Shown piece after piece: positions 59,407 to 64,000 of a DNA stretch of 64,000 bases (positions are counted from its first letter, which is position 1; each line of letters starts with the position of its first letter). The translations under genes were made by a program, and so were the position numbers. Origin of the DNA: Candidatus Omnitrophota bacterium. GTDB taxonomy: Bacteria; Ratteibacteria; UBA8468; B48-G9; JAFGKM01. The notes beneath the pieces were generated by a model. That model saw nothing but the letters and a program-made list of their open reading frames with translations. It was not told the DNA's origin and did not search any database. The stretch lies in NCBI GenBank assembly GCA_023819375.1, contig JAMWDI010000005.1, forward strand, positions 62,001 to 126,000, given 5' to 3'.

Positions 59407-59434
59407 TTGACAAAAAAAAATAAAATATTAAAAT
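59407..59434 (+). promoter_or_regulatory. Promoter of the hydrogenase operon
   Basis: TTGACA (59407-59412), 16-bp spacer, TAAAAT (59429-59434). The start should fall near 59441, just before the palindromic operator. No Shine-Dalgarno is seen in the leader of about 28 nt. Confidence 0.7.
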
Positions 59435-59468: not shown

Positions 59469-60488
59469 ATGGAAAAATTATATATTGAGTTTAAGGACTG
59501 GCAAAATTTCTTAAGAGGAAAATTAAAAGAAAAAAGAATTTATGCGCCTATAAAAAGTGAAAATGATATTCCATTTTATGAGATTTTAAATGAAAAAAAT
59601 CTTACAGATATAGTTTACGATAAAGCAAGACCTGTAGAGCCATTTAAAATATTTTTATTTCCATTTAAAGAAAAAGTTGTCCCAGAAATAGAGAATTTTC
59701 AGGAATTTGTTGTTTTAGGTGTAAATTCCTGTGACTTAAAAGGTATAGAAATTCTTGATAAAGTTTTTAAAGAAGGAGAATATAAAGATCCAAATTATGA
59801 AAAGAGAAAAGCAAATATTCTTATAATAAGTTTAGATTGTAAAGAACCATATCCAACTTGTTTCTGTTCACTTGTTGGAGTAAATCCATATCCTTCAAAA
59901 GATTTTGATTTAAATTTATCAAAAATTGGAAATGGCTTTATTGTTGAAATCGGAAGTGAAGAAGGACTCAAATTTTTAGATAATGATAGTAGATTTTATA
60001 AAGCAAATGACACACAAATAAAAATTCTTGAAGAAGAAAGGGAAAGAACCATTGAAAAGGTAAAAAAAATAAATGAGAATTTTAAAATAAAAGAACCAGA
60101 AAACCTAAAAGGGATGTTTCATAAAGAATACTGGCAAAAAATAGAAGATATAAAAAATTGTGTTTCCTGTGGGTCTTGTACATTCAACTGTCCAACCTGT
60201 GTTTGTTTTTTACTTGAAGATATTTCTAAAAATGAAATTTTCAAAAAGGTTAAAATATGGGATAGTTGCCAATTTCCGGGATATGCAAGAATGGCTTCTG
60301 GAGCCACACCAAGACCTTCTTTATTTGAAAGGTATGCAAACAGATTATTATGTAAATATTGGTATATGAAAGAAAACTTTAAAATTTTTGGTTGTACTGG
60401 ATGTGGTAGATGTATAAATGGATGTATAGGGAAAATAGATAAAAGAAAAGTTATTGATGAGGTTCTTGTTGAAAAAATGAAGGTTTGA
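59469..60488 (+). CDS. 4Fe-4S electron-transfer subunit, sulfhydrogenase beta (HydB)/AsrA-like
   Basis: 339 aa. An N-terminal domain of the HydB/AsrA type (VVLGVNSCDLKGIEILDKVF, then ISLDCKEPYPTCFC) is followed by two cluster motifs, NCVSCGSCTFNCPTC near residue 237 and FGCTGCGRCINGCIGKID near 313. In sulfhydrogenases and anaerobic sulfite reductases this subunit passes electrons between the flavoprotein and the catalytic subunit. Here it leads a membrane-bound hydrogenase operon instead. The spacing to the flavoprotein gene is 3 nt. Confidence 0.88.
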   Translation: MEKLYIEFKDWQNFLRGKLKEKRIYAPIKSENDIPFYEILNEKNLTDIVYDKARPVEPFKIFLFPFKEKVVPEIENFQEFVVLGVNSCDLKGIEILDKVFKEGEYKDPNYEKRKANILIISLDCKEPYPTCFCSLVGVNPYPSKDFDLNLSKIGNGFIVEIGSEEGLKFLDNDSRFYKANDTQIKILEEERERTIEKVKKINENFKIKEPENLKGMFHKEYWQKIEDIKNCVSCGSCTFNCPTCVCFLLEDISKNEIFKKVKIWDSCQFPGYARMASGATPRPSLFERYANRLLCKYWYMKENFKIFGCTGCGRCINGCIGKIDKRKVIDEVLVEKMKV

Positions 60489-60491
60489 AAA

Positions 60492-61322
60492 ATGGGGAAA
60501 AACATTTATAAACCAATAAAATGTGAAGTTATTGAAAATATAAAAGAATCTCCAACAATAAATACAATTGTTTTAAAACCAGAAGAGGAATTTTCATTTC
60601 TTGCTGGACAATTTGCTTCTCTAAGTGTTCCAGGAGTAGGAGAGGCGCCTTTTACACCATCTTCATCTCCTTTTGATAAAGAAAAATTAGAATTTACAGT
60701 AATGAGAGTTGGGAGAGTAACAGAAAAAATACATCAATTAAAGAAAGGAGATATAGTTGGTGTTAGAGGCCCTTATGGGAAACCTTATCCACTTGAAAAA
60801 TTCAAAGGTAAGGAAGTTTTACTTGTTGGAGGTGGAGTTGGTCTTGCCCCAATAAGGGCTTTATTCCTTGCTCTTGTTGAAACATATAAAGATTATAAAA
60901 GAATTGTTTTTTGTTGTGGTGCAAGAACTCCACAGGATTATATCTATAAAGACAAATTATTTAATGAATGGCAACAATTATGTGAAAAAATACCCCTTTC
61001 TTTTAGGATAACAGTTGATAAAAAAGATGAAAATTGGAAATATATGGAGGGAGTTGTAACTGTTACACTTGATAATCTTGATATGGATGTAAAAAATTCA
61101 GTCTGTGCAGTTTGTGGTCCCCCAATTATGATGAAGTTTACAACCTTAAAATTGCTTGAAATTGGCTTTTTGCCAGAAAATATTTATTTATCAATGGAAA
61201 GAAAAATGTATTGTGGAGTTGGCCATTGTAGACACTGTATGATAGGAGATTTATTTGTATGCAAAGATGGTCCAGTTTTTACTTATGAGGAATTAAAAGA
61301 TAAACCAGAAATATGGGTGTAA
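60492..61322 (+). CDS. FAD/NAD(P)-binding subunit, sulfhydrogenase gamma (HydG)/AsrB-like
   Basis: 276 aa ferredoxin-reductase-type flavoprotein. The FAD domain (FLAGQFASLSVPGVGEAPFTPSS) and the NAD(P) domain (LVGGGVGLAPIRALFLAL) precede a C-terminal [2Fe-2S] motif YCGVGHCRHCMIGDLFVCKDGPVF, as in HydG, AsrB and PyrK. It would oxidise or reduce NAD(P)H and hand electrons to the HydB-like subunit. The next gene starts 1 nt after the stop. Confidence 0.9.
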   Translation: MGKNIYKPIKCEVIENIKESPTINTIVLKPEEEFSFLAGQFASLSVPGVGEAPFTPSSSPFDKEKLEFTVMRVGRVTEKIHQLKKGDIVGVRGPYGKPYPLEKFKGKEVLLVGGGVGLAPIRALFLALVETYKDYKRIVFCCGARTPQDYIYKDKLFNEWQQLCEKIPLSFRITVDKKDENWKYMEGVVTVTLDNLDMDVKNSVCAVCGPPIMMKFTTLKLLEIGFLPENIYLSMERKMYCGVGHCRHCMIGDLFVCKDGPVFTYEELKDKPEIWV

Positions 61323-61323
61323 T

Positions 61324-61815
61324 ATGAAAAAGTTATTTATTGATTTTGATATGTGTTTAAAATGTAGTAATTGTGATGTTAAATGTTCATATTTTTTACA
61401 TCCAAAAAATAATGGAATAACAAGTTTAAGAGAAGAGATTGCGTTTTTATTTGCATGTAGAAGATGTGAAAACCATCCATGTATAAATGTTTGTCCTACA
61501 TCTGCTCTTAAAAGAGAAAATGGGATAAATAAAAGAAGTAGATTTTTATGTATTTCATGTAAAAGTTGTATGCTTGCATGTCCTTTTGGAACAATAATAT
61601 CTGACATAATTCCATATATAACTGGTAAATGTGATTTATGTATTGGAAGATTAAAAGAGGGAGAAATTCCTTTATGTGTTATAACAAGTAAATGCGGAGC
61701 AATAAAATTTATTGAAGAGGAAGAAATTGAAGAAAAAGAAGATTTGTATAAAATAGGGGAAAATTTAATTGTTAAATGTTTCAATTATCTTGAAAAATAT
61801 GGATTAAAAAAATGA
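61324..61815 (+). CDS. Poly-ferredoxin subunit (HydN/HycB-like)
   Basis: 163 aa. Four cysteine clusters: CLKCSNCDVKC, CRRCENHPCINVC, CISCKSCMLACP and CDLC...C, as in four-cluster DmsB/HycB/HydN proteins that wire formate dehydrogenases or hydrogenases. It probably joins the HydBG-like module to the membrane hydrogenase, or accepts electrons from ferredoxin. The stop overlaps the next gene as ATGA. Confidence 0.88.
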   Translation: MKKLFIDFDMCLKCSNCDVKCSYFLHPKNNGITSLREEIAFLFACRRCENHPCINVCPTSALKRENGINKRSRFLCISCKSCMLACPFGTIISDIIPYITGKCDLCIGRLKEGEIPLCVITSKCGAIKFIEEEEIEEKEDLYKIGENLIVKCFNYLEKYGLKK

Positions 61816-62741
61816 GTGTATTATATAGTTTTAGTTATTTTATTTTTTCCTTTGTAGTTTTAAGTATAATTGGACTTTTTGTTTCTTGGATTGATAGAAA
61901 AATCACAGCAAGAATACAATGGAGAGTTGGCCCCCCATGGTATCAAAATTTTGTAGATATTATAAAACTTTCTGGTAAAGAAATCTTAATTTCTGAAAAT
62001 AGCAATAAATTTATGTTTATTTTTTCTCCTATACTTGCAGTTACATCCTCAACAATTTGTGGTTCCATACTTTTTCTTGTTTTGAGAAAAAATTTGGGAT
62101 TTGGTGGAGATTTAATTCTTTTTGTTTATTTATTGACAATACCTTCCCTTTCAATAATCTTAGGAGGTAGTTCTTCCGGAAATGTTCTTGCTTCTGTTGG
62201 TATAAGTAGAGAATTAAAATTACTATTGTCCTACGAATTACCATTTATATGTGGAATTATTATTCCAGCTATTAAAGCAAATTCAACAACGTCTTTGATT
62301 GAAATAGTCAAATTTCAGGAAATAAATGGTAGCAATATTCTTTCTTTATCTGGAGTAATAGGATTTATTGTAATCCTGATATCTTCAATAGGTAAACTCG
62401 GAGTGGTCCCCTTTGATCTTGCAGAAGCGGAAACTGAAATTGCTGGAGGTGCTTTAATTGAATACTCAGGAATTTTATTAGGATTTTATAAATTAGCAAG
62501 AGCAATTTTATTTTTTGTTATCCCATCCTTTATTGTAATTTTATATTTAGGCGGAACACCTTTAAATAATTTTTTGGGGATTTTAATTTTTATAATCAAG
62601 TATTTTATTATTTTGATTTTGATAACTTTAATAAGAAATACAAATCCCAGATTAAGAATTGATCAGGCATTAAAATTTTTCTGGGGATGGCTAACTTTAA
62701 TAGGTATAATGGGTATTTTATTTGTTTTAACAGGGATGTAA
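61812..62741 (+). CDS. Group 4 hydrogenase membrane subunit (EchB/NuoH-like)
   Basis: 309 aa with about eight transmembrane helices. WIDRKITARIQWRVGPPWYQNFVDIIKL near residue 26 and PFDLAEAETEIAGGALIEYSG near 198 are the NuoH/EchB signatures at the membrane-arm junction where quinone reduction or proton pumping is coupled. It is the membrane anchor of the complex. No antiporter-type (NuoL/EchA) subunit is seen before the window ends. Confidence 0.93.
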   Translation: MSVLYSFSYFIFSFVVLSIIGLFVSWIDRKITARIQWRVGPPWYQNFVDIIKLSGKEILISENSNKFMFIFSPILAVTSSTICGSILFLVLRKNLGFGGDLILFVYLLTIPSLSIILGGSSSGNVLASVGISRELKLLLSYELPFICGIIIPAIKANSTTSLIEIVKFQEINGSNILSLSGVIGFIVILISSIGKLGVVPFDLAEAETEIAGGALIEYSGILLGFYKLARAILFFVIPSFIVILYLGGTPLNNFLGILIFIIKYFIILILITLIRNTNPRLRIDQALKFFWGWLTLIGIMGILFVLTGM

Positions 62742-62742
62742 A

Positions 62743-63159
62743 ATGAATTTGAAATTGAAATCTTTAAAGAAAAGTTTATGGGTATATCACGTAAGTGGAG
62801 GTAGTTGCAATAATTGTGACATTGAGATACTTGATTTATTAACTCCAAGATTTGACGTTGAAAGGTTTGGTATTATTCTTGCTGCTTCGCCAAGACATGC
62901 AGATGTTTTATTGTGCACAGGCATTGTAAATAAAAAATGTGTTGAAAGGATTAAAGAGATTTATGAACAAACACCAAAACCATGCGTTGTAGTTGCAGTA
63001 GGAGCCTGTGCCTGTTCAGGTGGAATTTTTAGGGATGGATATCAAATGGCAGGCCCTTTTGATAAAGTTATTCCAGTTCATATTTATATTCCAGGATGTC
63101 CACCAAAACCAGAAGCAATTATAAGTGGTATCGTCAAATTTTTGAAGGAGTTAAAATGA
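62743..63159 (+). CDS. Group 4 [NiFe] hydrogenase small subunit (EchC/NuoB-like)
   Basis: 138 aa. It carries the proximal [4Fe-4S] ligands C22 and C25 (SGGSCNNCDIEIL), C89 (VGACACSGG) and C119 (IPGCPPKPEAI), the NuoB/EchC pattern. It passes electrons from the polyferredoxin to the [NiFe] site. The start is 1 nt after the membrane subunit stop; the stop overlaps the next gene as ATGA. Confidence 0.94.
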   Translation: MNLKLKSLKKSLWVYHVSGGSCNNCDIEILDLLTPRFDVERFGIILAASPRHADVLLCTGIVNKKCVERIKEIYEQTPKPCVVVAVGACACSGGIFRDGYQMAGPFDKVIPVHIYIPGCPPKPEAIISGIVKFLKELK

Positions 63160-63596
63160 TAGATAAGTTAAAGGAAAAGTTAGGAGATAAAATAAAAGAA
63201 ATTAAAGTTCAAAATGAAAGAAGAATATATTTAACAATCGATAGAAAAGATTTAAAAAATATAGTAAATATCATTTTTAATGAAATGGGCGCAAGATATC
63301 AAATTGTAAGTGGAATTGAAAATTTCAACAATTTTGAACTTATATATCATTTTTCATTTGATAAAGAAAACGGAATTATTGTATCATTGAGAACTTTTCT
63401 TGATAAAGAAAAACCAGAAATAGAAAGTTTAGCAGATATAATCCCGGGTATTGTTTGGATTGAAAGAGAAATCTGGGAATTACTTGGAATAAATTTTGTT
63501 GGACATCCAAATCTAAAACATTTTTTATTAAGAGAGGACTGGCCAGAAAAATTCTATCCATTAAGAAAGGGAGAAAGAGAAAATGGCAGAAAATAA
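63156..63596 (+). CDS. Hydrogenase 30-kDa-like subunit (EchD/NuoC-like)
   Basis: 146 aa. The NuoC-type fold with LADIIPGIVWIEREIWELLGINFVGHPNLKHFLLREDWPEKFYPLRK is clear. An upstream in-frame ATG at 63096 lies within the small-subunit gene; ATG 63156 has AAGGAG 8 nt upstream and overlaps the previous stop as ATGA. It overlaps the large-subunit gene by 14 nt. Confidence 0.9.
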   Translation: MIDKLKEKLGDKIKEIKVQNERRIYLTIDRKDLKNIVNIIFNEMGARYQIVSGIENFNNFELIYHFSFDKENGIIVSLRTFLDKEKPEIESLADIIPGIVWIEREIWELLGINFVGHPNLKHFLLREDWPEKFYPLRKGERENGRK

Positions 63597-64000
63597 AAAA
63601 GTTGTTGTTCCAATTGGTCCTTATCATCCATTGCTTGAGGAACCTGAATTTTTTGAACTTTACTGTGATGGAGAAGAAGTTGTTGATGTTGAATGGATTG
63701 CTGGATATAATCATAGGGGAATAGAAAAATTATCTGAGTCAAAACATTGGGACCAAGTAACTTTTCTTGTCGAAAGAATATGTGGCATCTGTTCCACTTC
63801 ACATCCAATTGCCTATTGTAATGCAGTAGAGGATTTACTTGGAATAGAAATACCTGAAAGAGCAAAATATATTAGAAGTATAATTGGAGAACTTGAAAGA
63901 TTACACAGCCACTTACTCTGGGTTGGTCTTGCAGGTCATTTCCTTGGTTATAATACTGTATTTATGTGGGCCTGGAAATATAGAGAGGGTATACTTGATA
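63583..64000 (+). CDS. Group 4 [NiFe] hydrogenase large subunit (EchE/NuoD-like), partial at right edge
   Basis: 139 codons to the window end. GPYHPLLEEPEFFELY at the N-terminus and the L1 motif RICGICSTSH with C67, C70 and H74, the first two being nickel ligands, are visible, followed by ERLHSHLLWVGLAGHFLG. Intact L1 cysteines distinguish it from NuoD, which lacks them, so it should be a true hydrogenase. The second (L2) cysteine pair lies beyond the window and would settle this. The start overlaps the EchD-like gene. Confidence 0.93.
   Translation, partial: MAENKKVVVPIGPYHPLLEEPEFFELYCDGEEVVDVEWIAGYNHRGIEKLSESKHWDQVTFLVERICGICSTSHPIAYCNAVEDLLGIEIPERAKYIRSIIGELERLHSHLLWVGLAGHFLGYNTVFMWAWKYREGILD

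Follow-up and report, generated by a model that had tools for sequence, protein, structure and literature searches.

A 64,000-nucleotide stretch of Candidatus Omnitrophota DNA (the window; positions 62001–126000 of a 200-kb contig in a genome of 1.73 Mb and 13 contigs) ends inside an operon that is likely to encode a single membrane complex, a [NiFe] hydrogenase that is linked to NADH and translocates ions. The operon comprises 16 genes, from asrA through a HycF-like ferredoxin gene, and joins AsrA- and AsrB-like subunits to a group 4 hydrogenase and a complete Mrp set. The sequences show the gene content, cofactor ligands that are intact, and subunits that are conserved together and co-vary; the physical assembly of the complex, its preference for NADH over NADPH and its electron path we infer from them.

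Gene organization and cofactor ligands

Seven genes of the operon lie in the window on the forward strand: asrA (59469–60488; 339 amino acids (aa)), asrB (60492–61322; 276 aa), a cooF/hycB-like ferredoxin gene (61324–61815; 163 aa, four [4Fe–4S] motifs, Fer4_11) and genes for a NuoH/HycD/MbhM-like membrane subunit (61812–62741; 309 aa; PF00146, 5.9e-66), a NuoB/HycG-like hydrogenase small subunit with the proximal [4Fe–4S] cluster (62743–63159; 138 aa; PF01058, 3.6e-32), a 30-kDa NuoC-like subunit (63156–63596; 146 aa; PF00329, 3.7e-26) and the [NiFe] large subunit, of which the first 139 of 409 aa fall inside (63583–64000; PF00346, 3.8e-70; PF00374, 6.3e-20). Successive genes are separated by +3, +1, −4, +1, −4 and −14 bases. 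Open reading frames and domain matches agree with the first-pass annotation on the position and kind of all seven genes, on starts that overlap or lie a few bases apart and on a four-cluster ferredoxin as the third product. Reading the contig rightwards, the check that the same annotation had proposed, we found that the large-subunit gene ends at window-equivalent position 64812 with its L2 motif intact, and that genes for a NuoL/MrpA-like antiporter subunit, MbhD/E, MrpB, C, D, E, F and G and a HycF-like 8Fe ferredoxin follow, completing the Mrp set; the last ends at window-equivalent position 71193. A promoter-like site (TTGACA-16-TAAAAT, forward strand, 59407–59434, 34 bases 5′ of asrA, 11 of 12 consensus matches) is predicted from a consensus scan alone, which carries no evidence of function.

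The first two products had been called HydB/AsrA-like and HydG/AsrB-like, an assignment that profiles and solved homologues bear out. Among NCBIfam profiles the AsrA-like subunit, predicted to transfer electrons from the flavin subunit through its iron–sulfur clusters, matches ShyB (1.4e-45), HydB (1e-40) and AsrA (9.4e-35), and it aligns with chain B of the solved 9NEZ structure (1.3e-36). Its eight dicluster-type cysteines are kept in 108–110 of 110 relatives and the four N-terminal cysteines in 105 of 110. AsrB combines FAD, NAD(H)-binding and DHODB-type [2Fe–2S] domains, matches chain C of 9NEZ (Pyrococcus furiosus HydG; 2.9e-54) and retains all four cluster cysteines in 113 of 113 sequences.

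The AsrB cofactor is more likely to be NADH than NADPH. At the end of an NAD-domain strand, AsrB carries TVDKKDENW, which parallels YTLDRAPEAW of cytochrome b5 reductase, an enzyme that the D239T substitution moves towards NADP (PMC5817062). Of 115 AsrB sequences, 112 carry an Asp at the position equivalent to the NADH-determining Asp239; P. furiosus HydG, which its NCBIfam name describes as NADPH-linked, reads TRDPNW with Thr in that position. We therefore predict NADH, so that of the NAD(P)H module proposed in the first-pass annotation the pyridine-nucleotide function stands and the choice narrows towards NADH.

Both ferredoxin-like subunits resemble those of formate hydrogenlyase (FHL). The best solved matches of the CooF-like subunit are the HycB-type subunits of hydrogen-dependent CO2 reductase and FHL; eight of its cysteines are invariant (113 of 113), and the other eight occur in about half to 70% of sequences. 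The HycF-like subunit has its best match in FHL HycF, is also homologous to MbhN (6cfw chain N) and keeps its C-terminal, second Cys quartet in about 80 of 83 relatives. In FHL, the HycF extension carrying this quartet contacts HycB (PMC9474812). Because HycB-like and HycF-like subunits are both present, AsrAB may dock where FHL holds its formate dehydrogenase, FdhF. The small subunit has its four cysteines in 113 of 113 sequences; cluster ligands are thus near-invariant in the AsrA, AsrB, small and HycF-like subunits.

Conservation of the gene set

Scanning named genomes gave 565 relatives, from which 80 loci were kept; in a further sample of 386 genomes across the domain, large subunits of at least 53% identity occurred in about 30 groups at family level. 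Upstream asrB and cooF were found in 110 of 111 informative large-subunit loci at this identity (the named and unnamed sets overlap, so that not all loci are independent). The lone exception (L134) has a masked stretch exactly where asrB and cooF would be expected, and we do not count it as a counterexample. In the window's class, asrA-asrB-cooF precedes every large-subunit orthologue with enough upstream DNA, and the order asrA-asrB-cooF-NuoH-small-30kDa-large is kept there and in unrelated phyla: among loci with upstream DNA it occurs in Bacteroidales, Cloacimonadota, Omnitrophota, Ratteibacteria, Desantisbacteria, Aerophobetes, Clostridia, Zixibacteria and Endomicrobia. Latescibacterota, NPL-UPA2 and Margulisiibacteriota contribute incomplete loci that fall in the same clade. 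In all, the named hosts belong to about ten phyla.

The co-variation of AsrB with the large subunit is as strong as that of the small subunit, an obligate partner: Spearman correlations of pairwise distances with the large subunit were 0.77 for AsrB, 0.78 for the small subunit, 0.37 for the NuoH-like and 0.41 for the MrpD-like subunit. The first-pass annotation had considered one complex likely and had named a lack of conservation of the first two genes next to the hydrogenase as evidence to the contrary; the conserved unit and the AsrB co-variation favour its proposal. We looked for AsrA, AsrB or CooF fused to a hydrogenase subunit, which would have demonstrated direct contact, and found no case; the only fusions were of the 30-kDa and large subunits. 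Within a single sub-branch of the clade (L165, L172, L173, L174 and L176), these two share one frame, as in Escherichia coli HycE.

Two kinds of insertion occur between asrB and cooF. A molybdopterin-oxidoreductase-like gene lies there in Zixibacteria and several other genomes (L150, 5701–7626; L052, 4057–5685; and L162, L164, L166, L177, L182, L183 and L185); it appears shorter than a normal formate dehydrogenase, and the arrangement is that of a Saganbacteria cluster (PMC6349859). Operon forms with and without this gene both exist, the window's lineage and most relatives being without it. By eye, L123 (7169–7639) and about 11 other Bacteroidales loci have a Crp-type cyclic-nucleotide-binding-like gene at this place.

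Class of the hydrogenase

The ligands support a catalytically intact group 4 [NiFe] hydrogenase. Both CxxC pairs are present (L1, RICGIC; L2, DPCYCCTER, just past the window edge), beside a NuoB-like one-cluster small subunit and a NuoH-like membrane subunit, and L1 and L2 are both kept in 135 of 135 full-length relatives; the loss of L2 cysteines, named earlier as a ground for doubt, is not seen. The large subunit has a C-terminal tail of about 44 residues, of the type that HycI-type proteases cleave off; the genome encodes two such proteases.

The large-subunit tree that the first-pass annotation had suggested, built with Mbh, HycE and NuoD references, places the large subunits of AsrAB-CooF hydrogenases in one clade (74 rows, support 100; 100/99.9 in a second, careful tree). 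Its sister group (99/97) contains E. coli HycE, of the FHL lineage, and a second lineage with asrAB, whereas Pyrococcus Mbh (PfMbhL) branches outside. The closest named relatives of the window belong to Candidatus Omnitrophota and Candidatus Ratteibacteria. In the second lineage (L186, L187, L188, L192 and L194), AsrAB accompany a Hyf-like group 4 hydrogenase and CooF was not detected; in L186 a molybdopterin (FdhF-like) gene follows. A single clade uniting the window's group with these Hyf-like loci was rejected (approximately unbiased test, p 0.003). AsrAB may be ancestral and later lost in the HycE branch. A group 4 paralogue with antiporters, 43–48% identical and found mostly in the window genome's order (L054–L061), has no AsrAB, CooF-like gene or HycF Cys quartet; its L2 motif is DPCICCAER in most loci.

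The earlier label 'Ech-type' (group 4e) does not hold, as gene content and the large-subunit tree, in which no verified Ech sequence was included, both speak against it: EchA–F comprise six subunits with neither Mrp nor an NAD(P)H module, and the operon has 16 genes with both. It encodes instead an enzyme of the FHL/Mbh side with a complete Mrp arm. The large subunit lies outside the Mbh clade (group 4d) and an AsrAB-CooF input module is present. Counterparts of HycB, HycF with its Cys quartet, HycG and HycE are those of a group 4a core, but the window's operon has no FdhF-like gene. AsrAB resemble HydBG of group 3b, although the hydrogenase subunits are of group 4, and intact NiFe ligands and an operon without NuoEFG set the enzyme apart from respiratory complex I. 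In HydDB, group 4g has an undetermined role and is putatively ferredoxin-coupled (PMC5037454), and Mrp-linked hydrogenases of Omnitrophota and Cloacimonadota have been named 4g (PMC8542988). We give even weight to the broader proposal of a widespread energy-converting class, probably within 4g, that would act as an NADH:H+ oxidoreductase with a full Mrp arm, a complex I analogue with an independently acquired NADH module (AsrAB, not NuoEFG) in which an ion gradient enables NADH-driven H2 release.

Proposed mechanism and alternatives

In the proposed complex, NADH would bind to AsrB and be oxidized at FAD, and electrons would pass singly through the AsrB [2Fe–2S] cluster and the AsrA clusters to the CooF/HycB-like subunit, then by way of the HycF-like ferredoxin and the small subunit to the NiFe site, which would interconvert H+ and H2. 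The NuoH-like subunit would couple electron transfer to two antiporter-like subunits and the complete Mrp set. The layout would be that of FHL, with AsrAB in place of FdhF. The enzyme is probably reversible.

Redox potentials constrain its direction. With E′ of NADH at about −280 mV and E0′ of H2 at −414 mV (PMC9304861), we calculate an H+/H2 potential of −266 mV at 1 Pa and −296 mV at 10 Pa; NADH-to-H2 transfer thus breaks even between 1 and 10 Pa H2, leaving no energy for pumping. Unaided NADH cannot yield H2 above about 10 Pa, and therefore either an ion gradient or ferredoxin helps, or the reaction runs from H2 to NAD+. In fermenting hosts, H2 release would be powered by the gradient or by ferredoxin that donates at the HycF-like subunit; where H2 is abundant, NAD+ would be reduced and ions exported. 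The first-pass annotation had coupled NAD(P)H oxidation to H2 evolution and pumping: the coupling can be retained, with reverse operation or a ferredoxin co-donor the more likely form, but ion pumping driven by NADH oxidation to H2 is thermodynamically doubtful.

The host, surveyed by single-family searches, fits a strict anaerobe with a Wood–Ljungdahl pathway in which either direction is conceivable. Its genome encodes Rnf, NuoEF-like modules, pyruvate:ferredoxin oxidoreductase (PFOR), carbon monoxide dehydrogenase/acetyl-CoA synthase (CODH/ACS) and, next to MetVF and FolD, a separate hydrogenase of the Mvh type; no [FeFe] hydrogenase was found by family search. At the Mvh-type locus (L222, 7000–12846, contig C9), MvhG, MvhA and HycI genes lie between folD/cyclodeaminase and MetV/MetF, which suggests an H2-linked methylene-tetrahydrofolate reductase. 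Elsewhere, NuoE, NuoF, NuoG-like and HycB-like genes directly adjoin the CODH/ACS genes (L225, 3101–10913, contig C3), and HypB and a HycI protease gene lie beside a second, stand-alone Mrp antiporter operon (L228, 7037–15001, contig C11).

Several points weigh against an NADH-linked membrane complex as drawn here. Gene adjacency is no proof of a stable complex, and AsrAB could be a detachable partner, as FdhF is loosely bound in E. coli FHL (PMC9474812). The choice of NADH hangs on one residue position, and the relatives are uncultured, metagenome-assembled genomes. The direction is the least certain part of the proposal, and the ion may be either H+ or Na+.

The alternative of confurcation, in which NADH, entering by AsrAB, and reduced ferredoxin, entering by the HycF-like subunit, would jointly be oxidized to make H2 in a membrane counterpart of the bifurcating [FeFe] hydrogenases, appears unlikely. 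It has a predicted precedent in Mbh-Bfu (PMC9304861). It would also solve the energetics of NADH-driven H2 release, and it draws on the homology of the HycF-like subunit to MbhN of the ferredoxin-linked Mbh and on PFOR and Rnf in the genome; yet only a single flavin is evident, the operon has no NuoF/BfuBC-type core, and the corresponding HycF surface in FHL is occupied by HycB. HydBG enzymes are not known to confurcate, which counts further against it. Quite improbable is a plain ferredoxin-driven Mbh/Mrp pump with AsrAB as a co-encoded side branch recycling ferredoxin with NAD(P)H. Such a pump would accord with the putative ferredoxin coupling of group 4g (PMC5037454) and with the ferredoxin-linked solved relative Mbh, but all 110 informative loci have AsrAB together with the CooF-like linker, AsrB co-variation matches that of the small subunit, and the 43–48% identical paralogues without AsrAB lack the CooF-like gene and HycF Cys quartet as well. 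That AsrA and AsrB, despite their sequence similarity, belong to an anaerobic sulfite or sulfur reductase and are chance neighbours is strongly disfavoured, and AsrABC sulfite reductase was rejected, because a whole-genome profile search gave no AsrC match above the cut-off, the sole AsrA copy lies in the hydrogenase operon, this subunit scores higher with sulfhydrogenase HydB/ShyB than with AsrA, and the pair is conserved beside the hydrogenase in many phyla.

Comparison with known systems

Central to syntrophy and to the flow of carbon in sediments is the question of how fermenting anaerobes dispose of NADH as H2, which is energetically unfavourable. An NADH-linked complex of this kind would provide a direct, ion-gradient-assisted NADH-to-H2 route in environmental Bacteroidales, Cloacimonadota, Omnitrophota and several other uncultured phyla, and an electron donor for hydrogenases to which no role has so far been assigned. 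It would also be a second instance, independent of the first, of the complex I design of NADH module, hydrogenase and Mrp antiporter.

The first-pass annotation knew of no well-described enzyme of this exact composition. Literature searches, with subscription-only papers outside their reach, found no purified or assayed member, but the arrangement is not unprecedented. Saganbacteria RX5A carries asrA, asrB, cooF, Mrp-like and molybdopterin subunit genes beside a group 4 hydrogenase in one region, a cluster read as Mbh-like with nearest relatives in Zixibacteria and Omnitrophica (Matheus Carnevali et al. 2019, PMC6349859); it differs in the extra molybdopterin oxidoreductase, and the NADH argument and family-wide conservation are given only here. 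Mbh-Bfu of Dehalococcoides, a predicted NAD-linked membrane hydrogenase, likewise places an NAD-linked module on an energy-converting [NiFe] hydrogenase, but its bifurcating core is the unrelated BfuABC (HydABC/NuoEF-type) rather than AsrAB (Schut et al. 2022, PMC9304861). Among solved structures, HydB and HydG of P. furiosus soluble hydrogenase I (sulfhydrogenase, group 3b; 9NEZ) are most closely related to the first two subunits; this hydrogenase, however, is a soluble, NADPH-linked group 3 enzyme with Thr for the NADH-type Asp. E. coli FHL (group 4a; 7Z0S/7Z0T, PMC9474812) shares equivalents of the four-cluster HycB, HycF with its Cys quartet, HycG, HycE and HycD. It has FdhF where AsrAB stand here, and a single HycC in contrast to the complete Mrp set. 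Mbh of P. furiosus is reduced by ferredoxin and lacks both AsrAB and a CooF subunit. This group 4d enzyme (6CFW) shares the hydrogenase core and an Mrp-type arm with MbhD/E and MrpB–G homologues, but its large subunit falls outside the clade and its MbhN is short (139 aa). New relative to earlier reports are the breadth of the family, the strict linkage of its genes, their co-variation, the prediction of NADH as cofactor and the assignment as FHL-like.

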